Shown here: positions 9,714 to 25,796 of the stretch, one piece after another
Layout: each line of letters opens with the position of its first letter
How positions within the stretch are numbered: the stretch's first letter is position 1
Assembly: GCF_002257665.1 (NCBI RefSeq)
Contig: NZ_MQWB01000001.1
Span: forward strand, 680,502-744,501
Length of the DNA: 64,000 nucleotides
Source: Rubricoccus marinus
GTDB lineage: Bacteria; Bacteroidota; Rhodothermia; Rhodothermales; Rubricoccaceae
Reading direction: 5' to 3'
Translations under genes and position numbers: made by a program
Notes under the pieces: generated by a model
Databases searched by the model: none
What the model was told of the DNA's origin: nothing
What the model saw: the letters and a program-made list of their open reading frames with translations, nothing else

Positions 9714-10367
9714 ATGCCCCAATCCATGCTCGGCCTCCTTGCGCTGACGCTCGCGACGTTGATCTCGTTCAACCAGCAGCGGCTTCGCCAGCAGTCCTAC
9801 AAGGCCACGATCCACGACGAGGTCGAACTCGCGGCGGCCGGCACGGCGCAGCACGTGATGGAGATGATCTCCGGGCGCTCATTCGACGAGTCCTCCACAC
9901 CTGTGAAGGTGTTCCAGGCGGGTGTGATCCCGCAGGGGTCCTCGACGTTCACCGGTGGTGAGTCCGACGAGTTTGGGCGCTACTCGGACGAAGGGGAGTG
10001 CGACCTGATGGAGCCGTACAAAACGCCGAAGTGCGACGACGTAGACGACCTGGACGGGATCCGAGACGCCCCGATCTACGCCCGGCTGTCCGACGGTCGC
10101 CGGCTGACGTTTACGGCGGACGTCAACGTGGAGTACGTCACCGACCCGGGAACGGAGACGCCCTCCGATGCCCCTACGCTCCACAAGCGCGTCGAACTCA
10201 CGGTCCGAAGCCCGCACTCAGCTCGGGCGTCCAGCGACATGCTCACGCTGCACCGCGTGGTCTCTTATGACCCCGTCCGCGCGGACGCCAACATGGAGGC
10301 CGAGTGCGGCGCCATTGGTTTGGAAGGAAGCCCGTGTTCGACGGGCTCTGGCACCATCGAGGACTGA
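9714..10367 (+). CDS. Pilin-like protein (PilV-like position), no leader
   Basis: A 217-residue protein with a hydrophobic N-terminal helix beginning almost at the start (MLGLLALTLATLISFNQQR, residues 5-23) and a soluble remainder. The helix followed by a polar helix (YKATIHDEVELAAAGTAQHVMEM) matches the lollipop layout of type IV pilins and minor pilins. However, the short basic leader, the glycine before the cleavage site and the glutamate at +5 are missing. It is the first of three similar genes directly ahead of a PilT-like ATPase, the position occupied by pilV-pilW-pilX in classical systems. Two cysteines near residues 98 and 106 and two near the C-terminus could form disulfides. The second ATG (9726) is an alternative start. 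Confidence 0.68.
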   Translation: MPQSMLGLLALTLATLISFNQQRLRQQSYKATIHDEVELAAAGTAQHVMEMISGRSFDESSTPVKVFQAGVIPQGSSTFTGGESDEFGRYSDEGECDLMEPYKTPKCDDVDDLDGIRDAPIYARLSDGRRLTFTADVNVEYVTDPGTETPSDAPTLHKRVELTVRSPHSARASSDMLTLHRVVSYDPVRADANMEAECGAIGLEGSPCSTGSGTIED

Positions 10368-10408
10368 ACCGGGCGCGAACCATCTGAGCGCCTCTGGCGC
10401 CGACCCCT

Positions 10409-11140
10409 ATGATCTCCATCTTCGACCACCTCAGCTCGATCATCATCGGCAGCGCGGTCATCCTCATCCTGATGGTGGCGCAGCACCGGTCCTCCCACGC
10501 GAGCGTGGAGCAGGTGGCCACGCACAGCGTGAAGGCCAAAACGCTCGTTTTCGGGCACTGGATTGAGCGGGACATCTTGGACCTGGGCAAGAACCTCGGG
10601 CGCAACCGCTTCCGCTTTAAGCCGCCGACGACAGATTCGCTGGGCAACACCAGCACGTTCCACTTCTACAGCGATTCCACCTGCGTATCCGGCTGCTCCT
10701 TCCCAAGCGGCGTCAACGTCGCCGTGGGGGATACGGCCCGATTGCACACGCGATACCGGCTCGTGCCCACAGAGCGCGCAAACCTGCGCGACGCCAGCGG
10801 CCAGCGCGTGAGCCGGCAGCTGATGAAGCTGGAGCGGGACGTGTCAGAGACCTACGTAAACAATGGCGTCGCACCGGACCCGATAGAGACCAAGTGGCGC
10901 GCAGACCGGTGGACGATTGGCACGCTGTCCAGCTTCAACATCGAGATGCTGGAGCGCGACGGGCGGCCTGCTCGGCACAGCGATGGGACGGTCAACGTCG
11001 AGAGCGGGGACTACATCTTCGTCAAGTTCTCTGTCGTGCCGGAGTGGATTCTAGACCCGGAGAACTACATCCGCGAGATCTACTGGTCCACTACGCTCAA
11101 GGTGCGCCCCTACTGGGAGCCGCCCAAAGTCTCGACCTGA
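10409..11140 (+). CDS. Pilin-like protein (PilW-like), no leader
   Basis: A 243-residue protein with an N-terminal membrane helix (residues 8-25, LSSIIIGSAVILILMVAQ) followed by an amphipathic helix containing FGHWIERDILDLGKNLG. The 'RD(I/L)xxxG' pattern in that position is reminiscent of PilW-type minor pilins, in which a long N-terminal helix precedes a beta-rich domain. A prepilin leader is not present. The beta domain contains one close cysteine pair (TCVSGC). It lies 41 bases after the preceding pilin-like gene, likely in the same operon, with one decamer between them. Identity as a minor pilin is inference from topology and order. Confidence 0.66.
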   Translation: MISIFDHLSSIIIGSAVILILMVAQHRSSHASVEQVATHSVKAKTLVFGHWIERDILDLGKNLGRNRFRFKPPTTDSLGNTSTFHFYSDSTCVSGCSFPSGVNVAVGDTARLHTRYRLVPTERANLRDASGQRVSRQLMKLERDVSETYVNNGVAPDPIETKWRADRWTIGTLSSFNIEMLERDGRPARHSDGTVNVESGDYIFVKFSVVPEWILDPENYIREIYWSTTLKVRPYWEPPKVST

Positions 11141-11182
11141 TCCTCAGTTCCCCTGGCGTGTGGTTGCACACGCACGCATTCG

Positions 11183-11197
11183 CAAGGTGACCGCTCC
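11183..11197 (+). repeat. 15-bp sequence shared with the secretin upstream region
   Basis: CAAGGTGACCGCTCC occurs here, 38 bases before the third pilin-like gene, and again at 18015-18029, 63 bases before the secretin start. The match is exact. It could be a shared regulatory site or chance in GC-rich DNA. Confidence 0.4.
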
Positions 11198-11235
11198 AGA
11201 CACCTGCTCCTCGATTACTACAGACCCCCCCACCC

Positions 11236-12888
11236 ATGGGAAAGGCACTTCTCATCATTGTCCTCGGCGCAGGGTTCCTCCTGGCGCGCGCGGGCTTCAA
11301 CAATCAAGTCACCGAGCGAGAGTCCCGCAAGGACCAGGTGGAGTACGAAGAAGAGGTCCTCGCGCGCGAGATCTCTCGTTCGGCCTTTAACGTGGCGATG
11401 GGCATCGCGCGGGAGTACCCGAACTCGCTAGACGCAGGGGCCAACGCAGTGGACATGGCCGATGAGAAGGCCGACGGCCTCTATAACGGTACCGCCAGAG
11501 GCGGCATGTTCGCCGTTCGAGCGGAGACCCTTACGGGACATACCCTGAAGGTGACCTCGACGGGGTACTACGGAGGCGTGTGGGAGACGGACTCGAAAGG
11601 GGAGAAGCGCTACACAGGGGAGAGCTACACCATGTGGGACACGTTCCAGATCCGAGTCCTGGAGGTCCGTGAGGACGGCGTGCTGGACACGAGCTTCCTG
11701 GAATCTCAGGCCGGGTACTGCTCCGCCATCTATATGGACGAGTACCGAGGCGACGAGTTTGTCGGCACCCGGATGATCTTCGCCGCAGGCCACAACCGCG
11801 ACGGCGTGCGCCCCCCGGTCTCGATCTACGTGCAGGCTGGCACGCAGCTCAACTTCTTTATCGGGGTGGACACGAACTGCTCTGGCAAGTTCTCGACGTC
11901 GGCCTCGACGTGTCAGGCTCTGTCGTACGTGCTCAACGACAAGTTCAACCCGAGTGATGTCGGGCGGAACAAGCGCTACGATCACCTCCACTACGCTTTG
12001 GACATCCCGGCCCGCGACATCACCAAGATGGAAGAGGGAATCTGGGGCATGGTGGAGCAGAACCCGCGTGATCGCCAGAGGTGGCGGATCGGCTGGGAGG
12101 ATCTGGAGCGGAGCGATTGGGACCGCCCCAACTCGTCCGATCCGCAGCGTAGCCTTCAGGCCCTCAAGCGCCTGGGATACGACGGCAAGGGCTGGCCGGA
12201 CCGCAACAGCATGGGATACCGCGCTCTGCGGGACTACGGCAACCGCCCCGACTACTCCGATCAGGTGATCGAGTTGGGCATCTCTGCCCTGCGCTCGCAG
12301 GCCGCTCGGGATTCGCTCTGGTACGCGATGTACGAGGAGCGGAGCGACTGCGGCATCACGAACCCGGACGGCATGCCTCCAGAGCCGCAGATCCAGATCT
12401 GTGATGGCGGCGAGCAGCGGATGGTTGGGGCCAGCGTGCTCCAGTCCTACCTCAACGCTGGGGCAACCGAAGGCGCGTGCCCGGAGCGCGAGTACGAAGT
12501 CTGCCACTACGGAAGCGAGATGACGGTCCTCGCCTCGGCGCTCTCCGGGCACCTCCAGCACGGCGATACGCAAGGGGTCTGCCCGATCGAAGAGGAAGTG
12601 CTCCTGTGCCACGATGGCCAGCAACGGACGGTCGTGGAGTCTCAGGTTCAGTCTCACCTCAACCACGGCGATACGCGGGGCACATGCCCGGACGAAGTCG
12701 AGGAAGAGGAAGACGACGTCTACGACTGCCCGTGCAGCAGCAAAAAGCTCCAGCAGGGCAAGGTGGGCATCCTTCACCGCCCGCCGGGCAACCCCGCCAA
12801 CGAGCAACTGCTCTGCATCAGCCGGAACGGCTGGCGCAACGGCCACAAGCCCCGCCACGATGACGTCCTCGTCTGCGGCAACGGCTGA
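11236..12888 (+). CDS. Large pilin-like protein (PilX-like) with cysteine-rich C-terminal repeats
   Basis: A 550-residue protein. A short N-terminal hydrophobic helix (residues 4-19) followed by a polar helix (ESRKDQVEYEEEVLAREISRS) has the layout of PilX-type minor pilins, again without a leader peptide. The middle ~350 residues are unrecognised and contain cysteines. Residues ~384-500 hold three tandem ~36-residue repeats of the form C(D/H)xGxxxxV...Lx(H/A)G(D/A)TxGxCP, followed by a related CPC...HRPPGNPANEQLLC segment. These CHxG/HGD repeats occur in many secreted proteins of Bacteroidota-like bacteria. The arrangement suggests a tip or adhesion subunit. A strong terminator follows, separating it from the ATPase gene. 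Confidence 0.7.
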   Translation: MGKALLIIVLGAGFLLARAGFNNQVTERESRKDQVEYEEEVLAREISRSAFNVAMGIAREYPNSLDAGANAVDMADEKADGLYNGTARGGMFAVRAETLTGHTLKVTSTGYYGGVWETDSKGEKRYTGESYTMWDTFQIRVLEVREDGVLDTSFLESQAGYCSAIYMDEYRGDEFVGTRMIFAAGHNRDGVRPPVSIYVQAGTQLNFFIGVDTNCSGKFSTSASTCQALSYVLNDKFNPSDVGRNKRYDHLHYALDIPARDITKMEEGIWGMVEQNPRDRQRWRIGWEDLERSDWDRPNSSDPQRSLQALKRLGYDGKGWPDRNSMGYRALRDYGNRPDYSDQVIELGISALRSQAARDSLWYAMYEERSDCGITNPDGMPPEPQIQICDGGEQRMVGASVLQSYLNAGATEGACPEREYEVCHYGSEMTVLASALSGHLQHGDTQGVCPIEEEVLLCHDGQQRTVVESQVQSHLNHGDTRGTCPDEVEEEEDDVYDCPCSSKKLQQGKVGILHRPPGNPANEQLLCISRNGWRNGHKPRHDDVLVCGNG

Positions 12889-12909
12889 GCCCTGAGGCCC
12901 AGGCCTCTG

Positions 12910-12943
12910 GCGCCCCCTCCCGGAACGGTTCGGGAGGGGGCGC
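12910..12943 (+). terminator. Strong GC-rich intrinsic terminator
   Basis: GCGCCCCCTCCCG (12910-12922) pairs perfectly with its complement at 12931-12943 around an 8-base loop and is followed by TGTGGTTTC. It lies 21 bases after the large pilin-like gene and divides the pilus cluster into two transcription units. Confidence 0.75.
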
Positions 12944-12960
12944 TGTGGTTTCTGGCCTCC

Positions 12961-12978
12961 CGCCAGAGGCCTCTGGCG
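12961..12978. repeat. Tail-to-tail decamer palindrome
   Basis: CGCCAGAGGCCTCTGGCG in the 293-base gap between the pilin-like genes and the ATPase. Two further single copies follow before 13060. The promoter of the ATPase operon should lie between here and 13182, but no clear box is visible. Confidence 0.8.
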
Positions 12979-13181
12979 AAGGGGCGGTTTCTGCTGGCGT
13001 GGCGGTGCGTAAACGCGCCGCGCCAGAGGCTTTAATGCGAGGAGGCGGCCTCTGGCGGCGGCTTGAATGAGGGGGCATATGGGAACCGTGCGTTACCAAT
13101 CGTAGCGCCAGCGGCGCGCCCGCATGCCCGCAAAACGGACCGGACGATACCGCGGACCGCCTCGCGCACCAGAGTGGTGCC

Positions 13182-14588
13182 TTGGCGCAGTCCTTGGAAG
13201 CCCGCTTCCCACCTTCCTCCGTTCCAGTGTCCGCAACCCCGACGTTTGCTCCCCTTTCTGGCGCCCTTGGCGGTACCAGCGCCCCGGCATGGATGACGCC
13301 CGCGGCGCCAGTGGCCACGCCCGCCCCGCAACGGGCGCCGGAGCCGATGGAGCGCGACGCGGAAGGCTTTTTCCGGATCCCGTCCTACATCCGCGAGATC
13401 TCCAAGGGAGCGCCGCGTCTGTTTATCGGCGAAGACCGGCTCCGCTACTTCGTCGAGCAGATCGACCGGCTCTCTGTGGAGCACCGCGAGCAGATGCGGG
13501 ACTTCATGGACCAGTACGTGGAGCGGATGCACGAGATGGGCGCCAGCGACATGGACACCGGTGGCCCGGCCTGCGTCGGCCGCGTGTGGTACCGCTGCGA
13601 TGGCGAGAAGACGCCTCACTTCGAGCTGGGTATCCGCTCGCACGACGAGGTCGACATTCTGGTCCTGAACCTGCTCTCCAAGCGGCAGCAGGAGGACCTG
13701 TTTAAGGTGCAGTCGGCGGACTTCTCGTACCAGCTGGATATGCCGGACGGCACGCGCCGCCGTTTCCGCGCGACCTGCTACTACGACAACCAGCACATCG
13801 GGCTCTGCCTCCGCGCGATCGCGGAGGACGTGCGCCCGCTCAAAGGGCTCGGCTTCCACCCGCTCGTGGAGCGCGGCCTGATGTTCCAGCACGTCCGCGA
13901 CGGGCTGACGCTTATCACCGGCGTGACCGGCTCGGGCAAAAGCACCACGCTGGACGCCATCATCGACGCGAACAACCACGACTTCGACGGGCACATCGTC
14001 ATCGTGGCCAAGCCGATCGAATACGTCCACGCGCCGGACCGCTGCATTATCCGCCACCGCGAGGTGGGGCCGGACTGCCCCTCGTTCAAGATGGGCGTCT
14101 CGCAGGCGCTCCGGCAGGACCCGGACATCATCATGATCGGCGAGATGCGGGACCCGGAGACGATCGACTCCGCGATTGAGGCCTCCGATACGGGTCACAA
14201 AGTCTTCTCCACGCTCCACACCGCGAGCGCGGTCGAAAGCCTGGACCGCATGGTCGCGGAGTACCCGCAGGCCGAGCAGGAGCGCGTCCGCATCCGCCTC
14301 GGCGACGTGCTCCGCTGCGTCGTCTCGCAAAAGCTGCCCCCGAAGATCGGTGGCGGCCGCGTGCTCACAAAAGAGGTGCTCTGGGTGACCGCGTCGGTCA
14401 AGGCCGCCATCCAGAACGGCAACACCAACGAGATCTACCAGATGATGTGGGAGGGGACCAAGCAGGGGATGATCACCCTGGAGCAGGACCTCTTCCGCCT
14501 CGTCCGGGAGCGCAAGATCACGCCCGACACCGGGCTCCAGTACTCGAACAACAAGCGCCGCTTCCAGCAGCTCGTCCGCGGCGGCTGA
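13182..14588 (+). CDS. PilT-type type IV pilus ATPase
   Basis: A 468-residue hexameric pilus motor ATPase. Walker A (GVTGSGKST) is at about 247-255, the acidic Walker B/Asp-box strand (DIIMIGEMRDPET) near 316, and the His-box (STLHTASAV) near 345. The C-terminus (VKAAIQNGNTNEI, then MITLEQDLFRLVRERKIT) aligns with the AIRNLIRE-and-after region of PilT, and there is no zinc-binding tetracysteine insert typical of PilB/GspE; this points to a retraction-type ATPase. The open frame begins with TTG at 13182; ATG at 13293 or 13347 would remove a poorly conserved proline/alanine-rich stretch and are equally plausible. No decamer occurs inside the gene. Confidence 0.88.
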   Translation: MAQSLEARFPPSSVPVSATPTFAPLSGALGGTSAPAWMTPAAPVATPAPQRAPEPMERDAEGFFRIPSYIREISKGAPRLFIGEDRLRYFVEQIDRLSVEHREQMRDFMDQYVERMHEMGASDMDTGGPACVGRVWYRCDGEKTPHFELGIRSHDEVDILVLNLLSKRQQEDLFKVQSADFSYQLDMPDGTRRRFRATCYYDNQHIGLCLRAIAEDVRPLKGLGFHPLVERGLMFQHVRDGLTLITGVTGSGKSTTLDAIIDANNHDFDGHIVIVAKPIEYVHAPDRCIIRHREVGPDCPSFKMGVSQALRQDPDIIMIGEMRDPETIDSAIEASDTGHKVFSTLHTASAVESLDRMVAEYPQAEQERVRIRLGDVLRCVVSQKLPPKIGGGRVLTKEVLWVTASVKAAIQNGNTNEIYQMMWEGTKQGMITLEQDLFRLVRERKITPDTGLQYSNNKRRFQQLVRGG

Positions 14589-14606
14589 GCCACCCTCTGA
14601 CTCTGC

Positions 14607-14624
14607 GCCTCTGGCGCCAGAGGC
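14607..14624. repeat. Head-to-head decamer palindrome
   Basis: GCCTCTGGCGCCAGAGGC, 18 bases after the ATPase stop and 54 bases before the PilM-PilN gene, inside what looks like a co-directional operon. As a hairpin it could attenuate transcription or protect a transcript end. Confidence 0.8.
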
Positions 14625-14678
14625 AACCCTCCGCTGCCCGATCCGACCGGGGCTGAACGCCCCGCACCCCCCCGACCC

Positions 14679-16904
14679 ATGAGCGACACGCCCCTTCCAC
14701 CCAACCCCTTCGAGGGCGATCCCGACGACACCAACCCGTTCACGGGGGGTATCGGAGACGGCTCCTCGCACGAGAGCACGGCCCCTGGCGCGAGCGACTT
14801 CTTCGGCGGCGCGTTTTCCGACGAGGACTTCGAGCCCGCGCTTGAAGCCGCCAGCTTCGCCGGAGGCGCGGACTCGTACTTCGAGGACGCGGCTTCCGTA
14901 GAGGCCGTTTCGCCAGAGGCCGTAGCCGAGATGCCGGTAGAGGAGGGCGACGCCCTCGTCGCGGCCCCCGTCGCGCGCCCGCGGCGCCGACGCGCCCGCA
15001 AAGCGGCAGGTAAGTCTTCTCGCTCGCGCGGGACGCAGCAGATCGTGCTCGGCATCAACGTGACGCCGACGCACGTCTACGGCGTGTTGCTCAAGAGCGA
15101 GGGGAGCGGGAACTACTCGGCGCTTCAGACGCTTTCGCGCGTCCGGAACCAGAACGCGGAGGACACCTCTGGCGCGATGACGCCTTCGGACGTGGGCATC
15201 GCCGACCTCGACGGCGCGGGGCTCGACGACGGCTCGGTCCGCTTCGGCAGCGGCCAGGAACTCGACTTCACGGGCGAGTTCGACGGGATCGCTACGCCGG
15301 GTGACGTAGGCATCGACATGGGCGCCATCGGGCAGCCGAGAGCGGCGGCCCAGCCCATCGTGTTCGAGCTGCGCGACATGCTGGAAGAGCTCGCGCAGAG
15401 CGGCTACGACAAGCCAGCGCTTGCCTTCGGCATCGCTCCGCCGGATGTCGAGTACTTCGAAGTGCTCGTCCCGGCAGACAAGAAGGCGAAGAAGGCCAAG
15501 AAGAGCAAGAAGGGCGAAGAGACAGCGCCCGTGACGGTAAAGCGGGACAAGCTCGTCTCGCTTCTCCCGCCGTCTCAGCCCGGCCGCGAGATCGACACCG
15601 ACCGCGTGGCGTTCGTGCCGATGACGAAGCGGGAGGGCCGGCCTCGCTACCTCGCGATCATCCCGCAGCCGACGGACCCCGTCGTGCCGGCGATCTCGAT
15701 GCTCCGCGAGCAGTCCAAGCACCGTCGGACGGCGTTCAAGACCATCGAGGCCGAGGTGCCGCTCCTGATGGGCTTGGCGGCCCTCGCGTGCCCCTCCGAG
15801 CCTCACGAGAACACCGCCGTTGTGCGCGTGGGCGCCGAGGACACGCTTGTGCTCCTGCTTTCCGGCGGCGAGCTCCACCACATGGAGCCCATGCAGAGCG
15901 TGACGGCCTACGACGGCCCGGACACGATCTGCTCGCGCGTGCTGCTCCAGCAGGACGTCCAGGGCGTCGGGACGGTCCACAACGTGGTCGTGCTCGCAGA
16001 CGAGCGGCAGGATGACCTGGTGCAGGGCTTCTCCGCGTTCTACCCGGACGCCCGCGTCGAGTCGCTCGGCGCGCTCCTCGGAGACCTCGGCGTGATCTCG
16101 CCAGAGGCCCCTGGCGCGGACGAGGACCCGAAGGTCCTAGGAGCGGAGTCCGTGGAGGCCGCTGGCGCCGCGCTGTCCATCCTCGGCGGGAAGAACAGCT
16201 ATTTCCCAGACGCCAACCTCCTGCCCAAGGCGCTTCGCAAGAAGAAGCGCCGGATGGACCTCACGTTTGGCTGGCACACCCTCGTTGTAGGCGTGCTGCT
16301 CTTCCTGAGCGTCGTCTTCTTTATCGGCCTCTACTTCACCCAGGCGAGCGACATCGCCGAGCGGGAGCAGACGCTGGCGGAGTACCCGCCAGAGGCCACC
16401 ATGGCCGTTCCGGAGCTCCAGATGCGGATCGACAGCCTGCGCCAGGCGCAGATGGAGATCACCAGCGCGCTTGCGGCGATGGACTCCCTGCTCTACGGGA
16501 CCGACCGCTGGACGCAGGAGCTAGTGCGCACCTCGCGCGCCGTCAGCGCCTCTGGCGGCGTCTGGTTCGAGGACTGGCAGCCCAACGGCGCCTCCGTGGC
16601 GCTTCACGGCTTCGCGACGTCCCGCGCCCGGGTCGTCAGCCTCGCGCAGCGCTTGGACGCGGTCATCGAACAGGTGACGTACCAGGACACCCGCGGCTAT
16701 CCGGTCTACGAGTTCCGCCTCGATATGCCCTCGCCGATCGAGTTGCCGCAGACGGCCAAGTACCTCCGGGCACAACTCGGCGAGCCCGTGCCGCCAGCTC
16801 TGGACGCCCTCGCGGGTCTGGACGCCGCGGCGCCCGTGGCCGCGCAAGCCGCCCCGCCAGAGGCCTCTGGCGAGCCCGCGCCCACCACCCCCGACAACAA
16901 CTAA
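14679..16904 (+). CDS. PilM-PilN fusion (GspL-like)
   Basis: A 741-residue protein combining two pilus platform components. Residues 1-120 are acidic, disordered and rich in asparagine-proline-phenylalanine-like patches. Residues ~125-500 look like the actin-like PilM fold (QIVLGINVTPTHVYGVLLKS, VVRVGAEDTLVLLLSGGEL). One membrane helix (about 529-553, LVVGVLLFLSVVFFIGLYF) leads to a periplasmic coiled region and a ferredoxin-like PilN domain (VWFEDWQPNGASVALHGFA, ARVVSLAQRLDAVIEQVTY). In classical pili PilM and PilN are separate and PilN's N-terminal peptide docks on PilM; here they are one chain, as in GspL of type II secretion. It is followed 18 bases later by the PilO-PilP gene. Confidence 0.82.
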   Translation: MSDTPLPPNPFEGDPDDTNPFTGGIGDGSSHESTAPGASDFFGGAFSDEDFEPALEAASFAGGADSYFEDAASVEAVSPEAVAEMPVEEGDALVAAPVARPRRRRARKAAGKSSRSRGTQQIVLGINVTPTHVYGVLLKSEGSGNYSALQTLSRVRNQNAEDTSGAMTPSDVGIADLDGAGLDDGSVRFGSGQELDFTGEFDGIATPGDVGIDMGAIGQPRAAAQPIVFELRDMLEELAQSGYDKPALAFGIAPPDVEYFEVLVPADKKAKKAKKSKKGEETAPVTVKRDKLVSLLPPSQPGREIDTDRVAFVPMTKREGRPRYLAIIPQPTDPVVPAISMLREQSKHRRTAFKTIEAEVPLLMGLAALACPSEPHENTAVVRVGAEDTLVLLLSGGELHHMEPMQSVTAYDGPDTICSRVLLQQDVQGVGTVHNVVVLADERQDDLVQGFSAFYPDARVESLGALLGDLGVISPEAPGADEDPKVLGAESVEAAGAALSILGGKNSYFPDANLLPKALRKKKRRMDLTFGWHTLVVGVLLFLSVVFFIGLYFTQASDIAEREQTLAEYPPEATMAVPELQMRIDSLRQAQMEITSALAAMDSLLYGTDRWTQELVRTSRAVSASGGVWFEDWQPNGASVALHGFATSRARVVSLAQRLDAVIEQVTYQDTRGYPVYEFRLDMPSPIELPQTAKYLRAQLGEPVPPALDALAGLDAAAPVAAQAAPPEASGEPAPTTPDNN
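16855..16872. repeat. Tail-to-tail decamer palindrome inside the PilM-PilN gene
   Basis: CGCCAGAGGCCTCTGGCG in the last codons, encoding part of a proline- and alanine-rich tail (PPEASGEPAP). It shows how the repeat is tolerated in disordered protein ends. Confidence 0.8.
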
Positions 16905-16922
16905 CCCTGGACCCCAACGGTC

Positions 16923-17972
16923 ATGAGTAACGAAGTCCTCAACACGCTCATCCTAGCGGCCTTCCTCGCGGTCGCCGCAGGGTCCGGGTACTATATCACG
17001 CAGAAACAGCAGCCCGCCGAGATCGAGGCGCTCGACGAAGAGATCGAGGCCATCGAGAACCGGAAGGCGGAGGTAGAAACCCTGATCGCCGAGCAAGCGA
17101 TGGCGGACGAAGACGCCGCGCTCGCGCTGCAGCGCTGGAACACCCGCTACAAGGTGCTCCCGTCGTCGCTGTCGTCTGCCGACGTGGTGGCGTACCTCAA
17201 CGCGCTGTCCTCCCGCGGCTTCCGCACGTTCGACCTCTCGCTTTCAGGCCAGACCCAGGGCGGCACGTCGAGCTACTACACGTACTCGGTCAACGGGCAG
17301 GCCTACTTCGAGAGCCTCTTCTCGTTTATCTGGCACGTGGAGAACAACCGCGGGATGTACCGCATCCGCGACCTCAACGTCAAGAAGCTGGTCACGACCG
17401 TGACCGACGGCGACGTAGAGCGCCAGGTGGTCCTCGCCGAGTTCTCGATGGAAGTCGACGCCTTCTACGGCGCCCACAGCCAGATCTCCGCGCCCGACAG
17501 CGTAACCGCTCTCCCGGCCGCAGCCTACCCGCCGCGCCGCGCTGCGACGAACCCGTTCTATCCCTACATCCTCGAGACGCTTCCGCCCAACTCGGACGAC
17601 CTCGTGGACGTGGAGTCGGACAGCCTCTCAGCCGTGATCGGCGGAACGGCCGTCTTTATGCGGGAGGGCGAGATGCGGCAGCTCCGCACGGGCGACCGCG
17701 TCTACCTCGGACGCATCAGCTCGATCGACGCGCGCACCGCGCGGGTCGTGATCAGCCTCAACAAGGGGGGCATCCGCGAACGCGTGGAAGTCGACCTCAA
17801 CACGGGCGCCCGGTACCGCCAGGCCCTCGGCGACGCCTCGCTGCGCCGCGGCCCCGCCGCCGGCCCGGTCCTCGAAGCCGCTCCGCCCGCCCCGGGCACG
17901 CCAGAGGCCGAGGGGCACTCGCTGTACCAGAGCGCGGAGATCCCGCGCACGCCGCAGCCTTCCGACGACTAA
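16923..17972 (+). CDS. PilO-PilP fusion
   Basis: A 349-residue inner-membrane protein. One N-terminal helix (residues 8-26) is followed by a coiled coil (about 32-66, PAEIEALDEEIEAIENRKAE) and a PilO-like periplasmic domain (VVAYLNALSSRGFRTFDLSL ... YRIRDLNVKKL). After a proline-rich linker, residues ~232-290 (AVFMREGEMRQLRTGDRVY, ARVVISLNKGGIRERVEVDL) match the small beta domain of PilP/GspC that contacts the secretin. PilO and PilP are normally two proteins. Placed between PilM-PilN and the secretin, it completes the alignment complex in canonical M-N-O-P-Q order. Confidence 0.78.
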   Translation: MSNEVLNTLILAAFLAVAAGSGYYITQKQQPAEIEALDEEIEAIENRKAEVETLIAEQAMADEDAALALQRWNTRYKVLPSSLSSADVVAYLNALSSRGFRTFDLSLSGQTQGGTSSYYTYSVNGQAYFESLFSFIWHVENNRGMYRIRDLNVKKLVTTVTDGDVERQVVLAEFSMEVDAFYGAHSQISAPDSVTALPAAAYPPRRAATNPFYPYILETLPPNSDDLVDVESDSLSAVIGGTAVFMREGEMRQLRTGDRVYLGRISSIDARTARVVISLNKGGIRERVEVDLNTGARYRQALGDASLRRGPAAGPVLEAAPPAPGTPEAEGHSLYQSAEIPRTPQPSDD

Positions 17973-18014
17973 GCGCCTCCGGCGCCAGAGGCCACGCGCT
18001 TGGCCTCTGGCGCA

Positions 18015-18029
18015 CAAGGTGACCGCTCC
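18015..18029 (+). repeat. Second copy of the 15-bp shared sequence
   Basis: Exact match to 11183-11197 (CAAGGTGACCGCTCC), upstream of the secretin. TACTTGTA, loosely like the window's -7 boxes, lies at 18057-18064, 28 bases before the start. Confidence 0.4.
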
Positions 18030-18092
18030 GGTTTAGGGCGCTGCCCCACCCGCCGATACTTGTACACCCCCGACCGCCTCCTGGGCGAACCC

Positions 18093-19505
18093 ATGACCCC
18101 GACCCGCCTCTCGCGCTCCGTATCTCGATACGCGATGGTGGCCCTCGTGGCCGCCGCTGGCCTCGCCGCCACCTACGGTGCCGCGCCCGCCGCCAACGCC
18201 CAAACCCGCACCGTCCGCGCCTACATCCCGCCAGACGAGCTCGTCTCGTTCCCTGCTGGGATGCCGATGGACGAGTTCATCAGCCTCGTCAACCCCGTCT
18301 TCCGCCGTGTAACGGGGAAGAGCGTGGTGGACCCCGAGGACCGCGAGGATCCGATCGGCGTCTCGCTCAACGGCGTCCACTTCGTTGACGCGTTCGAGCT
18401 CGTCCTGGACCGCCAGAACCTCGACTTCCGCGAGACGGAGGGCTACTTCATCATCGAGGAGCCTGCGGTCATCATCGACCAGACGATCGTCGCGACGACG
18501 TCGGACCAGCAGACGATCACGCAGATCGACGCCGGGCCTCGCGCCGTTGGCGGAGGTTCGAACGCAGCATCTGTCTCGGCACAAGAGCGTGAGATCCACA
18601 TCTCGGCCATCGTGTTCGAACTCAACCGCAACAAGTCCCGCGAGGTGGGCACCAACTGGGCCTCCATCTTTGGAGAGGCGTCTGCTGAGAGCGGCGCCTC
18701 GACAGGCGGTAACACGGGTGGTGGCACCCAGGGTGAAAGCTCTGGCGTGACCTTCTTCCTCGACGCTGGTTCGTTCTTCGACGCGCTGGACGGCTTTATC
18801 CAGGCCAGCTCCGACCGCGTGCCACTGAGCCAGCTTGCGAGCCTGTTCCGCTACTTCGAGGAGAACGGCTACGGCCAGACTCTCGCGTCGCCAAGCGTGA
18901 CCGTGCGCAGCGGCATCCAGGGCAAGATGCAGTCCGGTGAGGACATCCCGATCAACACGCGGGACTTCCAGGGCAACACGCTCACGCAGTTCATTTCCAC
19001 CGGTACCATCATCGACGTGACGCCTACGCTGATCGTGGAGGAGGTCGACGGTCAGGAGATCGAGTTCATCCACCTCGACGTCAAGGTGGAGAAGAGCAAC
19101 TCTCGCATCATCAACGGCAGCGTCGGCGTGTTCAAGAACGACGTGCAGACCGAGGTGATGCTGCTCGACGGTGAGATGACGGCCATCGGTGGCCTGACCT
19201 CGACCGACGAGACGTATTCCCGTAAGGGTGTGCCGATCCTCAAGGACATCCCGATCCTGAGCTTCATCTTCGGCTACACGTCTCGTCAGGAGACGCAGAA
19301 GGAACTCGTTGTCGTGCTCCAGGCTGAGGTCATGGACGACCTCCGCACCCGGATGCGTGCCCCGAGCCGCGACGGGGAGATCCTCGAGGATGCCCGCGAC
19401 CGCGTCCGCCAGCGCCTCAACCGTCTCAACGACGGCGCCGGTGACCGCATGGAGGACCTCGACACGATGGGCCCCATCGAAGTCGACGCCCGCGACCGCC
19501 GCTAA
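18093..19505 (+). CDS. Secretin, PilQ/GspD-like, short form
   Basis: A 470-residue outer-membrane secretin. A signal peptide (about residues 1-36, ending AAPAANAQ) precedes one N-terminal STN/N0-like domain (IGVSLNGVHFVDAFELVLDR, LDFRETEGYFIIEE). The N1-N3 ring domains of GspD and the AMIN domains of PilQ are missing; instead a short linker leads to the beta-barrel domain with GYGQTLASPSVTVRSG, VTPTLI, and the signature VMLLDGEMTAIGGL and GVPILKDIPILSFIFG. About 60 residues follow the barrel, perhaps a pilotin-binding tail. The shortened periplasmic part suits a system in which the fused PilO-PilP spans the gap. No full decamer is found in the gene, although it is dense in its neighbours. ATG 18093 is chosen because it begins the signal peptide. 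Confidence 0.88.
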   Translation: MTPTRLSRSVSRYAMVALVAAAGLAATYGAAPAANAQTRTVRAYIPPDELVSFPAGMPMDEFISLVNPVFRRVTGKSVVDPEDREDPIGVSLNGVHFVDAFELVLDRQNLDFRETEGYFIIEEPAVIIDQTIVATTSDQQTITQIDAGPRAVGGGSNAASVSAQEREIHISAIVFELNRNKSREVGTNWASIFGEASAESGASTGGNTGGGTQGESSGVTFFLDAGSFFDALDGFIQASSDRVPLSQLASLFRYFEENGYGQTLASPSVTVRSGIQGKMQSGEDIPINTRDFQGNTLTQFISTGTIIDVTPTLIVEEVDGQEIEFIHLDVKVEKSNSRIINGSVGVFKNDVQTEVMLLDGEMTAIGGLTSTDETYSRKGVPILKDIPILSFIFGYTSRQETQKELVVVLQAEVMDDLRTRMRAPSRDGEILEDARDRVRQRLNRLNDGAGDRMEDLDTMGPIEVDARDRR

Positions 19506-19528
19506 GCCCCGCCTCTGGCGACGGGTCC

Positions 19529-19565
19529 GCGCCCCGGCTCTCTCACGAGGGCCGGGGCGCTTTCT
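19529..19565 (+). terminator. Intrinsic terminator after the secretin
   Basis: GCGCCCCGGC (19529-19538) pairs with GCCGGGGCGC (19551-19560) and is followed by TTTCTGTT. It closes the pilus-like operon. Confidence 0.75.
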
Positions 19566-19575
19566 GTTGGCGTAG

Positions 19576-19593
19576 GCCTCTGGCGCCAGAGGC
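19576..19593. repeat. Head-to-head decamer palindrome between convergent genes
   Basis: GCCTCTGGCGCCAGAGGC between the secretin and the dynamin-like gene, which converge. A further decamer (near 19619) touches the latter's stop. Confidence 0.85.
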
Positions 19594-19627
19594 GGAATCC
19601 GGACTTGATCCGGAGAACCGCCAGAGG

Positions 19628-21400
19628 CTACACGCCTTCGGCGGCGCCGTAGCGGCGCGCCACCTCGGCGCCGATGGCATCGGCCTCGGCTTCCAGGCGG
19701 TCGGCCTCGGCGCGGTCGGTACGGGCAGCCTCGCGTTGCTCGGCCACGAGGGTGTCCAATGGCTCGACGAGGGCGCGGACGCGGCCTACTGCTTTGTCGG
19801 CCTCCTGCCCGAGTTCGGTCCTGAGCACGCGGCCGATCTCTTCCCGTAAGGCGGAAACGCGGTCTGTGAAGTCCTTGACGGCGCGGCGGCGCTGCATGGG
19901 CAGGACCACGAAGCCCAGCGTCGCGATGGCGCCCGTGGCGAGAATGCCCCCGGTCACGTCCAGGACCGTCGCGAAGATGAGCGCCACGCCGATCGCGCCG
20001 ATCCCCGCCGCGGTCATGCCCCCAACGGTCAGCGCCGAGCGGGCGTTTTCGAGGATGCGCCGCGCTTCCTCGTCGAGGTCGATGGTGTCGAGCGCGCGCC
20101 GGGTCTCGCGGACGGCGTCGCGCAGGATGGCGTCTCTGTCGTGGATGAAGGAGTCGCCGGCCGTCGTTTCGTTTCTCTGGCGGAGCGCCGAGAGCCGGTT
20201 GTAGACGTCGCGCCAGAGGTCGTGCGCGTGGCGCAAGAGGCCGTCGGCACTTTCGCCGATGCGTGCCTCGATGCCCTTTTCGGCATCGCGGACTACCTGC
20301 CGGTTGAACTCGTCCTGGAACGCGGCGCGATCGCGCAAGAGGCCGATCTTGCTCACGCGGATGGTGTCGTCTAAAAAGCGGGCGCCGCGCTTCTCCATCT
20401 CCAGAAGCTGCCGGTCCACCTCGCTAACGGAGCCGCCGACGACCTCGGCCATCGTGCTCTCGGCCTGGGCGAACCGCTCCTGCAACGCGCCGAGCGCTGC
20501 CGCGTCCTCTTCCAAGTGAGCGTGCCGCTCGTCCAGCCTCTGGCGGGCGCGGCTCAGGAGCGCGCGCGTGGCGTCCAGCGGGGCAGAAAGCTTGAGCGAG
20601 AGGCGGGCGTCAGCGGTCAGCGTCTCGCGGATAAACCGCTCGAACGCGCCAAAGCGGCTCTCGTCCCATGAGGGGTGCGTTTGCGGGGCCTCTGGCGATT
20701 CCAGCTTGGCCTCCAACGCCTTCCGCGCGGCGACGGGAAAGGTGATCGGCGCCTGGCCCATCATGGCCGTGAGCCCGTCGCGCACGTGCGCGAGGACTTG
20801 CTGAAGCGCCTCCTCGCCAGAGGCCAGGTCGGATTTGTTGACGGCGACGACGAGGCGTCGCCCCCAGGTCTCGCGGACATACTCCAGGAACTGGCGCTCG
20901 CTTTCGCTCAGCGGACGCTCCACGCTCGTCACGAACAGCACCAGGTCGGCGCGGGGCACGAAGTCCTCGGTCAGGGCTTGGTGCTCCTTGATGATGGAGT
21001 TCGTGCCCGGCGTGTCCACGAGCGCGAGGTGCTGCAGAAACGGAGCGGGTAGGCGGCGCTCGGTGACGAACTCGCTCCGGCGATGCGTCTCCTCCGTGTC
21101 CCCGTGCCGCAGGACCGTGATCTTGTCTGTCGTGGGGACGGGGCCCTCTTCCATCACGCGCTTCCCAAACAGGGCGTTAACGAGCGTGGATTTCCCTGCG
21201 TTGAACTCCCCCGCGACGACGAACAGGAACAACTCGCCGAGGCCGCTCGCAAGGTCTGCCAAGCGGCGTTGTTCGTCGCCAGAGGCCCCCGCGCGATCGA
21301 GGAGCGCGCCGAGGTCCGTAAGAAGCGCGCGTTCCCGCTGGAGCAACGCGTCAGCCTCTGGCGGGAGGCTGGCGGGGAGGGGAGCAGGAGCGGATGGCAT
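19628..21400 (-). CDS. Bacterial dynamin-like GTPase
   Basis: A 590-residue large GTPase. G1 (GEFNAGKST) is at residues 64-72, the threonine of G2 in PVPTTDKIT, G3 in LVDTPGTNS near 130 and G4 in VNKSDL near 188. A long helical stalk follows, and a hydrophobic hairpin at about 460-500 (AAGIGAIGVALIFATVLDVTGG, ATGAIATLGFVVLP) acts as the membrane-binding paddle. The domain order and length match bacterial dynamin-like proteins, which remodel or protect membranes and have been tied to envelope stress and phage defence. It is a single gene, whereas many bacterial dynamins occur in pairs. ATG 21400 sits before the predicted helical start, with a TAGATTGC box upstream. Confidence 0.88.
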   Translation of the reverse strand: MPSAPAPLPASLPPEADALLQRERALLTDLGALLDRAGASGDEQRRLADLASGLGELFLFVVAGEFNAGKSTLVNALFGKRVMEEGPVPTTDKITVLRHGDTEETHRRSEFVTERRLPAPFLQHLALVDTPGTNSIIKEHQALTEDFVPRADLVLFVTSVERPLSESERQFLEYVRETWGRRLVVAVNKSDLASGEEALQQVLAHVRDGLTAMMGQAPITFPVAARKALEAKLESPEAPQTHPSWDESRFGAFERFIRETLTADARLSLKLSAPLDATRALLSRARQRLDERHAHLEEDAAALGALQERFAQAESTMAEVVGGSVSEVDRQLLEMEKRGARFLDDTIRVSKIGLLRDRAAFQDEFNRQVVRDAEKGIEARIGESADGLLRHAHDLWRDVYNRLSALRQRNETTAGDSFIHDRDAILRDAVRETRRALDTIDLDEEARRILENARSALTVGGMTAAGIGAIGVALIFATVLDVTGGILATGAIATLGFVVLPMQRRRAVKDFTDRVSALREEIGRVLRTELGQEADKAVGRVRALVEPLDTLVAEQREAARTDRAEADRLEAEADAIGAEVARRYGAAEGV

Positions 21401-21422
21401 GGGGCGAGTCGGGGACGGGAGG

Positions 21423-21430
21423 GCAATCTA
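21423..21430 (-). promoter_or_regulatory. Candidate -7 promoter box (TAGATTGC)
   Basis: On the minus strand, 22 bases upstream of the dynamin-like start; belongs to the TAnnTTnn set. Confidence 0.35.
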
Positions 21431-21574
21431 GGCCCGCGCCAGAGGCTCTCTGAGGTCCCAATTCGGCATCCCTTCTCGGAACTCCGGTCCGGGCCGTGGG
21501 TTGGGATCGGAAGCGTGCCACGGAATTAGCACGGCGCACATATCGCGCTGTTGCCCCCGCTCTAGCGCGTTTCC

Positions 21575-21582
21575 TACCTTTC
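21575..21582 (+). promoter_or_regulatory. Candidate promoter of the outer-membrane protein
   Basis: TACCTTTC resembles the TAnnTTTG -7 element of Bacteroidota, and a TTG (21551-21553) lies 21 bases upstream, the expected -33 spacing. It is 45 bases before the start of a gene that looks highly expressed. The best promoter candidate in the window. Confidence 0.45.
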
Positions 21583-21627
21583 CTACTGCACTTCCTCACC
21601 CGCACCCTCCTTAAGAGGCCCCCTTCC

Positions 21628-22731
21628 ATGCTGAATGTTGCACTCGTCGGCCTTCTGGCCGGATCCCTCCTGTCTGCTAACCCCACAGGTGGGGACGGTG
21701 ACAAGGACGGGACCAAGAGCAAAAAGGCCGACGCTCAGGAGTCCGTCTTGATCGTCGGTGATAACGCTGAGTTGTCCCCCACCGTTGACACGTACGCTCT
21801 CGGTCGCCCCTCGGCTGCCTCCCCCATCAAGTTCTGGATCGAGTACGGCTTCGGCGGTGCTGACGAGATCTACGACACCGCAGGCGAGGCTCAGGAGCCG
21901 AGCGTTGGCGGTGGCGCCATCATCGGTGGAGACGCCGAGATCAACTCGCAGCGCGCTGCGGTTGGCCTCCAGATCAACCCGATCAGCTTCTCGAAGTTCA
22001 GCGTCGGCGTCGGCGGTGTCCTGACGGGCGCGAAGAACACGATCTCCGGCACGGCTGGCCCGTTCTCTCAGACCGGTGACGAGCTCTCGAGCGATTTCAG
22101 CGTTCAGAACGTCAAGATCTTCGCATCTGCTCGCGGCAAGGTTCTCGGCATCCACGGCGGCTACATGCTCGACCTCGGTGACGACCAGGAGTTCAACGAG
22201 AACGGTCTCCCGATCGACATCTCGCGCTCCGACAACCGTGACGCGATCCAGCTCGGCGTCGACTTCGATTACCCGGCTCGCGGCTTCCGCGTCTTCGGTG
22301 GCATCGACCGGTACATCATCCTCGAGAACTGCGACGTGTACCCCGCTCCGTGCAACAACTCGACGGGCCCTGACGGCAACAACGAAGACCTCTTCGGCGA
22401 GGAGGGCGACGGCGTCTGGAACTTCGTCCTCGGAACGGGCCTGCGGGTCTCCTTCGCAGAGGTCGGCGTTGCAGCCCAGATCGTCGCTCGCGACCGTCAG
22501 CCGGTTGACCGCAACGGTGCAGGCACCGCAGGCACGACCGAGAACATCGGTGGTTACGTCAGCACGCTCTCCCCGTACCTCCGCGTCAAGCCGCCGAGCC
22601 TTCCCGCCTCCCTCTACGTGAAGGGCGGTCTGCAGGACGAGTACAACGTGTACGGCCTGCCGATCGACGGCGCGAACGGTCCTAAGCCGACCTTCGGCCT
22701 GACCTTCGGTCTCTCTGTCGGCTTCGAATGA
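21628..22731 (+). CDS. Outer-membrane beta-barrel protein
   Basis: A 367-residue exported protein. A short hydrophobic start (MLNVALVGLLAGSLLSA) is followed by an acidic/lysine linker and then alternating, aromatic-ended strands (KFWIEYGFGG, FSVGVGGVLTGAKN, KIFASARGKVLGIHGGYML, NFVLGTGLRVSF) ending in phenylalanine-glutamate (LTFGLSVGFE), the typical barrel C-terminus. No specific family is recognised. The signal peptide lacks a clear basic start, which is unusual. Codon use differs from its neighbours, with frequent GTT, GGT and TCT codons, and I see no decamer copy within 1.1 kb. Together with the promoter and terminator around it, this suggests an abundant, selected gene. Confidence 0.78.
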   Translation: MLNVALVGLLAGSLLSANPTGGDGDKDGTKSKKADAQESVLIVGDNAELSPTVDTYALGRPSAASPIKFWIEYGFGGADEIYDTAGEAQEPSVGGGAIIGGDAEINSQRAAVGLQINPISFSKFSVGVGGVLTGAKNTISGTAGPFSQTGDELSSDFSVQNVKIFASARGKVLGIHGGYMLDLGDDQEFNENGLPIDISRSDNRDAIQLGVDFDYPARGFRVFGGIDRYIILENCDVYPAPCNNSTGPDGNNEDLFGEEGDGVWNFVLGTGLRVSFAEVGVAAQIVARDRQPVDRNGAGTAGTTENIGGYVSTLSPYLRVKPPSLPASLYVKGGLQDEYNVYGLPIDGANGPKPTFGLTFGLSVGFE

Positions 22732-22738
22732 TCCCGCA

Positions 22739-23449
22739 GTGATTCAACTGGACCCCACCGTCCGGCAAGGGGGCCGTCTGGCAGTAGTCAGGCGGCCCCC
22801 CTTGGTTTGGGCGCTCCTCGTCGCATGCCTTCTGCCTCTGGCGGGATGTTTCGGAGGCGGTCTGCCGCTGCCGAGCGCACGTCCGGGGGAGCTGCTGACG
22901 CCCGACTTGCGTCGCCTCGACGACCTCTCGGAGGCGCTTGCGGAGGCTGGAAGTGACGCGGCCCGAACCCAGATCGCAGCAGACGCCCTGGCCGCCTCTG
23001 GCGTGGCGCCTCTGGCGGACGCACGCGTGCCCGGCAAGAGCGGGCGGTTCGTCGTAGGCGTGGACGGACGAACCCTGGCGGGGTGGATTCCTGGGCGCGG
23101 GCCGCTCCACAAGGATTCGCTCATCGTGGTGGCGGCCTCTCGCGATGGCGTCTCGGACCTCGCGCTGATCGAGGCGTCACGGATGCTCGTGGCCTCTGGC
23201 GCGTACACGCAGATCCCGGCCCGCTCCGTCTTGGTCGTGCTCGGAGACGACGTACGGGCCCCGCTTCGGCTCTGGAATCGCGAGGCCGTCTTGTCTGTCC
23301 TCCGCGTCGGCACCGCCGGTCCGGATTCCCTCGCGGGACGCCCGGTTCAGGCCCTCGCGCCAGAGGCCAACGCGGCCACTCTCGCGGCACGCCTCTACGA
23401 GGTGCTCTCGCTCGCCGCGACCCCTTCTCCCTCGGTGTACACACGGTAA
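22739..23449 (+). CDS. Lipoprotein resembling a degenerate M28 peptidase domain
   Basis: A 236-residue protein with a lipoprotein signal peptide (PLVWALLVACLLPLAGC). The mature part has the layout of an M28 aminopeptidase core: RFVVGVDGRTLAGWIPGRGP, then KDSLIVVAASRDGVSDLAL, EASRMLVASGAYTQIPARSV and LVVLGDD. In active enzymes the second block carries the zinc-binding HxD; here it reads ASRDGVSD, so the metal site is lost and it is probably not a peptidase. The frame opens at GTG 22739, inside the terminator hairpin of the preceding gene; TTG at 22802 is an alternative that would start just before the signal peptide. Function unknown. Confidence 0.6.
   Translation: MIQLDPTVRQGGRLAVVRRPPLVWALLVACLLPLAGCFGGGLPLPSARPGELLTPDLRRLDDLSEALAEAGSDAARTQIAADALAASGVAPLADARVPGKSGRFVVGVDGRTLAGWIPGRGPLHKDSLIVVAASRDGVSDLALIEASRMLVASGAYTQIPARSVLVVLGDDVRAPLRLWNREAVLSVLRVGTAGPDSLAGRPVQALAPEANAATLAARLYEVLSLAATPSPSVYTR
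22767..22808 (+). terminator. Intrinsic terminator overlapping the next gene's start
   Basis: AAGGGGGCCG (22767-22776) pairs with CGGCCCCCCTT (22793-22803) with one bulged C, followed by GGTTTGG. It terminates the outer-membrane-protein transcript and overlaps the first codons of the lipoprotein frame if that starts at GTG 22739. Confidence 0.65.
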
Positions 23450-23456
23450 CCGACTC

Positions 23457-23474
23457 GCCTCTGGCGCCAGAGGC
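23457..23474. repeat. Head-to-head decamer palindrome between co-directional genes
   Basis: GCCTCTGGCGCCAGAGGC, seven bases after the lipoprotein stop and seven bases before the next start. Confidence 0.85.
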
Positions 23475-23481
23475 TCGCTCC

Positions 23482-24222
23482 ATGCTCCCCACTCTCCTCA
23501 CCGATACGGTTTCCGCCGATCCCCGCCGAGCGCTCGACTCGGCGCTGCTCTGGGGCTTCGAAGCCGTCGTGCTCCGCACCGTCGGCAGGCAGCGGGTGCC
23601 TCACGTCAACGAGGCGCAACTCCGCCGCCTGCTGGAAGACGCCGAGATGCCGCTGGAGGCGGTAGACCCCGGGCTGTTTGAGGGCGACGCGACCGCGCCG
23701 GCGGCAGGATTGGATGATCTGGAAGCGCTCGCCGCACTCGCGCCGTTTTGCACTCGGATGCGCACCCGGACCGTCATCGTCGGACCGATGGGAGCCGCGC
23801 CGCGAGAGGTGTCTCAGGCGTCTGGCGTGCTGAAGCGAGCGGGAGACGTGGCGGCAGGGTACGGCCTGACGCTCGCGGTCCGCAACGAAGGCGAGGCGGC
23901 GAGCGCGGAGGCGCTCGCGGATCTCGTCGGTTCCATCGGTCACCCGTCGGTGGTCGGCTGGTGGTCGGTCGCGGCCTCGCGAGAGGCCGGCGAGGAGCCT
24001 CTGGCGAGCGCGAAGGCACTCGTGGGCACCCCTCTGGCGGGCATCGAAGCCGACGAGGCGTTTGCGGAAGCCGCGCCAGAGGCGTCGGGATTGATCCCGC
24101 TCTGTCAGGCCGGTTTCGAAGGGCCCGTGGTCCTCGCGTTCGGTGGCGTGCCCCAGAAGGGGTTGGCAACGGCAACGGCGTTGATCCGTCACGTGCGTAT
24201 GGCCCGAAAGGCGGCGGCTTAG
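23482..24222 (+). CDS. Sugar phosphate isomerase/epimerase-like TIM-barrel protein
   Basis: A 246-residue cytoplasmic protein with the alternating strand-helix pattern of the xylose-isomerase-like/AP-endonuclease-2 barrel (ALLWGFEAVVLRTVG, VIVGPMGAAPREVSQASGVLKRAGDVAAGYGLTLAVRNEG, VVGWWSVAASREAGEEPL, GLIPLCQAGFEGPVVLAFGG). The conserved 'L.vrNEG' and 'GPVVLAFGG' strand ends fit, but metal-ligand residues such as the HxxxD and ExH pairs are not all evident, so catalytic activity is uncertain. ATG 23482 directly follows a decamer palindrome. The frame is open much further upstream only as an alternate-frame overlap with the lipoprotein gene. Confidence 0.6.
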   Translation: MLPTLLTDTVSADPRRALDSALLWGFEAVVLRTVGRQRVPHVNEAQLRRLLEDAEMPLEAVDPGLFEGDATAPAAGLDDLEALAALAPFCTRMRTRTVIVGPMGAAPREVSQASGVLKRAGDVAAGYGLTLAVRNEGEAASAEALADLVGSIGHPSVVGWWSVAASREAGEEPLASAKALVGTPLAGIEADEAFAEAAPEASGLIPLCQAGFEGPVVLAFGGVPQKGLATATALIRHVRMARKAAA

Positions 24223-24273
24223 AGGCCTGCTGAGGTTCCTCGCGCGCGACGCGGCAAAGTGAGAACCCGCCGG

Positions 24274-24281
24274 TATCTTGG
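24274..24281 (+). promoter_or_regulatory. Candidate -7 promoter box (TATCTTGG), possibly leaderless
   Basis: Ends four bases before the acyltransferase ATG. If functional, transcription would start at or just past the start codon, giving a leaderless mRNA. Confidence 0.35.
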
Positions 24282-24285
24282 CGGC

Positions 24286-25095
24286 ATGTCCAGCACCGTC
24301 GTGCCCACGCCGCCGTCCCGCCAGAGGCCGAGCCTCGTGCGGACGGACCTCACGCCTTCGTTCGCCCACCGGGCACACTTCGGATGGCTTCTGGCGGTCA
24401 TGGGGTTTTTTACGGCCACCATGAGCCCGTGCGTCGTGATCCATTCGGCGTTCAAGCCGGGTGCGAAGACGTTCCGGACGTGGATGGATCCATGGGCGCG
24501 CTTCATCCTCGGGATGTGTGGGATCCGCTTGCGTGTGGACGTCCGCGTAGCCGTGCCGGAGCCGGTGGTGTTTGTGAGCAACCACCAGAACTCGATGGAC
24601 GTGCCGGTCCTCTCGGCGGGGATTCCTGTCCCGTTCGTGTTCGGCGCCAAGAAGAGCCTCCGGTCGTGGCCGTTCGTCGGATGGGTGCTGGAGCGGACCG
24701 CGTGCCTGTTCATCGACCGCAGCGGGCCTAAAAAGGCGCTCGCGAGTTTGCAGGAGTGCGCGGAAAGGATTCGTGGGGGCGCCTCCGTTTTGCTCTTCCC
24801 CGAGGGTGGGCGGTCCTGGCGGCACGGCCTGCTGCCGTTCATGCGCGGCCCGTTCGTGCTCGCCATCGAGTCTGGCGTGCCGGTCGTGCCGGTCGCTATC
24901 ATCGGCAACGCGGGCGTGCTGGACGAGAAGGGCCTGTATTCCAGCTCAGGAGAAGTCCGTCTCGTGTTGGGAGAGCCTATTTCGACCGAGGGAATGACGC
25001 GCCGAGATGCCGTCGCGCTCTCAGAGCGTGTTGAGGCGTGGATCCGCGCGGAGATGGAGGCCGTCGCGCCTCTCGTGCCGGCCTCTGGCGAATAG
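24286..25095 (+). CDS. plsC: 1-acylglycerol-3-phosphate acyltransferase
   Basis: A 269-residue membrane-associated acyltransferase making phosphatidic acid. The catalytic NHxxxxD motif is NHQNSMD (about residues 98-104) and the glycerol-phosphate-binding block is FPEGGRS (near 170), with a threonine-to-glycine change from the usual FPEGTRS. A hydrophobic segment (about 38-55, WLLAVMGFFTATMSPCVVI) precedes it. PVVPVAIIGN is the fourth motif. ATG 24286 is chosen over a start nine codons earlier because it lies just after a candidate promoter box. Confidence 0.88.
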   Translation: MSSTVVPTPPSRQRPSLVRTDLTPSFAHRAHFGWLLAVMGFFTATMSPCVVIHSAFKPGAKTFRTWMDPWARFILGMCGIRLRVDVRVAVPEPVVFVSNHQNSMDVPVLSAGIPVPFVFGAKKSLRSWPFVGWVLERTACLFIDRSGPKKALASLQECAERIRGGASVLLFPEGGRSWRHGLLPFMRGPFVLAIESGVPVVPVAIIGNAGVLDEKGLYSSSGEVRLVLGEPISTEGMTRRDAVALSERVEAWIRAEMEAVAPLVPASGE

Positions 25096-25186
25096 CAGGA
25101 ATGGAAGGCCGAGGTCTCTTTCGCGCCAGAGGCGTGCAGCACCTGCCCGGCAACGTCCGTACCCCGCATACACGCACCCTCTGCTC

Positions 25187-25756: not shown

Positions 25757-25774
25757 CGCCAGAGGCCTCTGGCG
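25757..25774. repeat. Tail-to-tail decamer palindrome after a stop codon
   Basis: CGCCAGAGGCCTCTGGCG directly adjoining the lipoprotein stop codon (25754-25756). Confidence 0.85.
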
Positions 25775-25796
25775 TGGGAGGAGGGGAGAGGACGGG

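Follow-up and report, generated by a model that had tools for sequence, protein, structure and literature searches.

In the type IV filament superfamily, removal of a leader by a prepilin peptidase is regarded as a shared and defining step, and pilins are commonly found through this leader. To our knowledge, a leader peptide is present in essentially all type IV pilins described so far. The systems to which the present locus is closest are the type IVa pilus and the type II secretion system (T2SS; GspC-O). A survey of the superfamily counts the prepilin peptidase among the core components (PMC6668835). Fusions between platform proteins have been described: PulL is a PilM-PilN fusion (PMC10191384), and pilM and pilN are mostly fused in Spirochaetes (PMC11870540). 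Two further cases are set beside the present system from their published descriptions. The ‘T2SS’ of Cytophaga hutchinsonii represents a related lineage with type IVa pilus-like branching (PMC6668835); in this organism, a Peptidase_A24 gene, CHU_3197, lies next to T2S-G (PMC5553014). The genome paper for Melioribacter roseus, through which alone this species is compared, lists pilT, pilQ, pilB and pilC as found and pilA and pilD as not found (PMC3534657); its authors inferred an incomplete pilus set, the leaderless pilin family described below being unrecognised.

The window, i.e. the whole 64,000-nucleotide stretch analysed here, corresponds to C1:680502-744501 of a 4.43-Mb genome that is 97.7% complete. 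Its pilus genes lie at 9714-19505, all on the + strand; open reading frames were confirmed at the coordinates given previously by a sequence-only reading, and together with the domains they bear out the canonical order that this reading had proposed (ATPase, PilM-PilN, PilO-PilP, secretin). It had also listed a major pilin as absent from the window; pilin-like genes are present there, three minor-pilin-like ones occupying 9714-12888. Protein 1 (MPQSMLGLLALTLATLISF..., 9714-10367) begins at its hydrophobic helix, with an in-frame stop 12 codons upstream and no start codon between; it is followed by protein 2 (MISIFDHLSSIIIGSAVILIL..., 10409-11140) and the large protein 3 (MGKALLIIVLGAGFLLARAGF..., with EEVLAREISRSAFNVAMG; 11236-12888). 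All three are without a leader, and their synteny is kept in relatives. The next gene (13182-14588, start codon uncertain) encodes a PilT-type retraction ATPase. It matches T2SSE in Pfam (E=9.5e-35), and its score against the NCBIfam PilT/PilU model TIGR01420 is 317.3 bits, with 341 of the 343 positions aligned, marginally below the cut-off of 319.1; the next-best family reaches 136 bits, and PilB/GspE models fall far below PilT/PilU. After the two platform genes, the operon ends with a short secretin (18093-19505; PF00263, E=1.2e-30) that has a Sec-type signal peptide (recognised by eye) and in which one short N-terminal region precedes the secretin domain. STN, Secretin_N and AMIN all gave no Pfam match at E<=1, in agreement with the earlier description of a secretin without N1-N3/AMIN domains. 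A gene for a dynamin-family GTPase (19628-21400, − strand) adjoins the secretin gene, and a similar-sized gene is found there in relatives. No Rfam families or tRNAs were found in the window.

The first platform gene (14679-16904) encodes 741 residues, with a transmembrane segment near residues 530-552 and a C-terminal PilN domain. As a single sequence, the protein gives a weak Pfam match to PilN (0.011) and none in a search against the PDB. PF05137 (PilN) is recognised in seven of 17 family members, and the profile of this 17-member family matches Myxococcus PilN (PDB 3jc8, E=1.1e-9) at positions 397-547. The N-terminal half gave no match in Pfam, in NCBIfam, among PDB sequences (including the profile search), or when compared by hhalign with individual HofM and GspL sequences from E. 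coli. As this half is unrecognised by any method, we infer its identity as PilM only from its position before PilN, its length and its topology; the proposed PilM-PilN fusion is therefore borne out on its PilN side, and its PilM side is putative. The second platform gene (16923-17972) encodes 349 residues. An AlphaFold model from 26 sequences (pLDDT 81) predicts, in this order, a long transmembrane/coiled-coil helix, an alpha-beta-beta-alpha-beta-beta domain and a six-strand domain. For the first domain, solved PilO ranks first (2rjz, Z 12.2, 91 residues, 2.2 A), and Foldseek concurs on PilO (3jc8, E=1.8e-5); the second resembles PilP (2lc4, Z 8.9; 2y4y, Z 8.7) and the GspC HR domain (3oss, Z 8.4, 1.6 A). 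With these structural matches, the predicted PilO-PilP fusion is well supported, as the sequence-only reading had anticipated. Fused PilMN occurs in 71 of 114 Rhodothermales genomes, usually with the whole system in one operon. The platform fusions are thus lineage-wide and of a known type; they do not make a new machine. Roseithermus sacchariphilus carries the pilus operon twice; in the second copy (G035:C1:2071000-2090500), the PilM and PilN halves are separated by an opposite-strand ORF of 300 amino acids, as though an insertion had split PilMN.

PilB, PilC and PilD are not encoded in the window, as previously stated; their matches are found elsewhere in the genome. One option of the sequence-only reading, a pilus whose remaining genes are distant, is supported by what the genome holds outside the window. 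Genes for PilC (a T2SSF match) and a PilB-like protein (T2SSE, 320 bits) are adjacent at C1:207-211 kb, 470 kb from the window operon, so that the claim of a PilT-like protein as the only ATPase holds for the window and not for the genome. Three copies of a pilin-like protein beginning with MGQQQ are found at two sites on the same contig (C1:629919 and 630456, and C1:2877058), and a single PilD lies in a T2SS cluster on contig C11. In relatives, pilC-pilB adjoin the pilT-pilQ genes, and the typical operon reads MGQQQ protein - pilC - pilB - minor pilins 1-3 - pilT - pilMN - pilOP - secretin; in the window genome, it is broken into separate chromosomal pieces. Named relatives (Rubrivirga, Roseithermus sacchariphilus, Rhodothermus, Salinivenus and Salinibacter altiplanensis) put the order at Rhodothermales.

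A separate, complete pilMNOPQ set was not found in the genome; the sole other secretin is GspD of the T2SS cluster on C11. This cluster also contains the genome's only prepilin peptidase and its only N_methyl prepilins over the cut-off; no canonical prepilin over the cut-off was found on the chromosome, where an N_methyl match at C1:2298856 (10 bits) was rejected as below the cut-off. The cluster (positions 10000-29900 of the 168-kb contig) is a canonical one, with GspD, GspE, GspF, a PilN-like GspL, PilD, and pseudopilins that carry leaders. T2SSE matches on C14 and C15 were considered as pilus ATPases and judged to be of the VirB11 type (frames of 349-370 amino acids on small contigs with plasmid-type neighbours).

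The chromosome also contains a frequent 10-mer, CGCCAGAGGC/GCCTCTGGCG, with 231 copies in the window (1-64000) and 14,176 in the 4.43-Mb genome, a mean spacing of about 312 bp (the backwards-read control gives 61). It is sparse in the stretches of C11, C14 and C15 that were examined, the T2SS cluster among them. A genome of the same genus has 99 copies, and the other 112 genomes of the order are at background level. The word resembles a DNA uptake sequence or a HIP1-like word that has arisen in one species. About 38 GCTGAAAGCTGACC-like units in one 20-kb stretch of Roseithermus are a local repeat; as they are limited to this single stretch, a Roseithermus ‘dialect’ of the 10-mer was ruled out.

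The feature that sets this system apart is the start of its pilins. In relatives, one to three small proteins, often in tandem, are encoded 5' of pilC; they begin with MGQQQLLL, and a hydrophobic helix follows at once. A profile built from 26 members is positive in 74 of 114 genomes of the order, 66 of which also have PilMN. Among the 71 PilMN genomes, 66 thus have the pilin (Fisher p=2e-16, a value that ignores relatedness); the pilin occurs without detected PilMN in eight genomes and PilMN without the pilin in five, mostly incomplete genomes. In a phylum sample, 128 of 394 genomes are positive, and several of the pilin neighbourhoods contain the same PilC-PilB-PilT-PilMN-PilOP genes. All 81 distinct sequences that the profile found in the retrieved loci start with GQQQL after M or V. 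A set of 99 distinct genes was picked by the motif, unlike the 81 profile hits, and their identical start is therefore by construction. In 93 of these 99 genes, the codons from the preceding in-frame stop to MGQQQ include no ATG, GTG or TTG; this stop is at most 10 codons away in most of the set; a Shine-Dalgarno-like (AGGAGG-like) word directly precedes the start in 56. Because an upstream in-frame start is missing, a class III leader is not encodable in these 93 genes. The minor pilins, in the window and in relatives, start 0-7 residues before the hydrophobic segment, and nearly all of them lack a start codon further upstream. Neither major nor minor pilins begin with a class III signal peptide (G|FTxxE). 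The T2SS of the window genome serves as a control: its pseudopilins read EAG|FSLTELM, with PilD alongside, so the method sees canonical leaders where they are present.

The MGQQQ protein falls outside all Pfam and NCBIfam families and shows weak similarity to MacB_PCD. A model of one member was predicted with moderate confidence (pLDDT 76, pTM 0.64) and consists of a helix (residues 3-55) followed by antiparallel strands. Foldseek returned no significant match for this model. In a second look with VIA-align, each of the 18 best-ranked rows is a type IV pilin or pseudopilin (Z 9.3 to 5.5), including full-length gonococcal pilin (1ay2, Z 8.1, 126 residues) and PAK pilin (1oqw, Z 8.1, 116 residues). 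A Z near 8 may by itself reflect a common arrangement; an unbroken run of pilins ranked above unrelated rows points to more than that. The profile also aligns with E. coli GspG in the helix region (P=0.0017). A pilin-like fold is therefore supported for the family, as far as a predicted model can tell. The register is uncertain: residue 4 of the model corresponds to mature pilin residue 1 in the alignments with 1ay2 and 1oqw, and residue 3 does so in the GspG alignment.

The second unusual feature concerns the processing enzyme. The PilD N-terminal domain (PF06750) exceeds the cut-off in four of 114 genomes of the order versus eight of 14 control genomes, and the catalytic domain (PF01478) does so in eight of 114 versus 12 of 14. 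No A24 peptidase over the cut-off was found in 60 of the 66 order genomes with PilMN and pilin, nor in 113 of the 128 pilin-bearing genomes of the phylum sample. Within the order, a peptidase is present in six of 66 genomes with the system and two of 48 others (p=0.46); in the phylum sample, the figures are 15 of 128 with pilin and 34 of 266 without (p=0.87). Peptidase presence is unrelated to the pilus system. In one single-contig genome (completeness 100), the operon is present and PF01478 has no match. Weak A24-like matches below the cut-off occur in some genomes, and a very divergent peptidase could escape detection. The sequence-only reading had noticed neither the leaderless pilins nor the missing peptidase.

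Set against the type IVa pilus, the system shares the ATPases, platform protein, alignment proteins, secretin and pilM-Q gene order, and, judging from the model, the pilin fold; it differs in that its pilins have neither a class III leader nor Glu5, PilM-PilN (with PilM putative) and PilO-PilP are fused, the secretin is short and a peptidase is missing in most genomes. It has in common with the T2SS that GspL is a natural PilM-PilN fusion and that GspC has a PilP-like HR domain. Unlike in the T2SS, PilT is present, the locus has no GspO and the pilins have no leaders; the genome's T2SS is separate, on C11, with canonical leaders.

These data are most readily explained by a type IVa-like filament that retracts, consists of unprocessed pilins and is encoded by one ancestral operon that is now scattered over the chromosome; we regard this as quite probable. 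PilB would power assembly of the filament on the platform PilC, and PilT its retraction. PilMN and PilOP would form an inner-membrane and periplasmic frame that leads up to the short secretin, guiding the fibre through the envelope. The MGQQQ pilin would be translated in its mature form, bypassing a leader peptide, the prepilin peptidase step and N-methylation by such an enzyme. Its N-terminal helix would take it into the inner membrane, with the N-terminus inside as for canonical pilins after cleavage, and would then become the filament core. By known rules, a Met preceding Gly may be removed, perhaps leaving Gly-Gln-Gln-Gln here as the only processing. The three window pilins, likewise leaderless, would act as minor pilins at the tip or in priming. 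Where the MGQQQ pilins have their invariant GQQQL, at the inner helix end, canonical pilins bear a free amine and Glu5; the glutamines may take over this pairing. The pilus might serve adhesion, twitching or DNA uptake.

Other readings of the same genes have to be weighed. A conventional type IVa pilus that has fused subunits, and whose pilins are trimmed after all by an unrecognised peptidase (a divergent A24 enzyme or an unrelated one) or by the PilD belonging to a T2SS in the same cell, could draw on the PilD of contig C11 and on the sub-threshold A24-like matches; MSH systems without a local PilD may likewise borrow one (PMC6668835). This is nevertheless improbable, since the missing upstream start in 93 of 99 genes leaves nothing to trim, peptidases are distributed independently of the system in both samples, and the conserved operon includes nothing peptidase-like. 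That the machine secretes by means of a short periplasmic pseudopilus, with no surface pilus, seems unlikely, if slightly less so. The short secretin and the GspL-resembling fusions would suit it, as would the clustering of the Cytophaga type II system, from Bacteroidetes, with type IVa pili (PMC6668835). PilT is, however, present in the complete operons examined, whereas T2SSs arose with loss of PilT (PMC10191384), and this genome encodes its T2SS at another locus, where the pseudopilins are canonical.

The MGQQQ protein might instead be an inner-membrane accessory or signalling protein, the true major pilin being something else. The non-significant Foldseek E-values and the weak MacB_PCD similarity are compatible with such a role, which we nevertheless consider very unlikely: type IV pilins or pseudopilins take every one of the 18 highest structural ranks, the genes adjoin pilC, often in tandem, and the chromosome has no canonical prepilin over the cut-off. 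For the unprocessed-pilin filament, no precedent was found; the open literature searched (subscription papers being mostly outside the search) holds no description of leaderless pilins or of peptidase-free type IV pili.

Most likely, then, the system works like a type IVa pilus yet fails two of its defining features. Leaderless pilins together with the missing peptidase constitute the finding, and they would contradict a textbook rule for the superfamily. It is likely that Bacteroidota (in the GTDB sense) possess a phylum-wide branch of pili without leader or peptidase, in which invariant MGQQQL pilins polymerise without Glu5 or N-methylation, and that leader cleavage is thus not universal in the type IV filament superfamily. 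Many Bacteroidota would thereby gain a pilus that current annotation misses.
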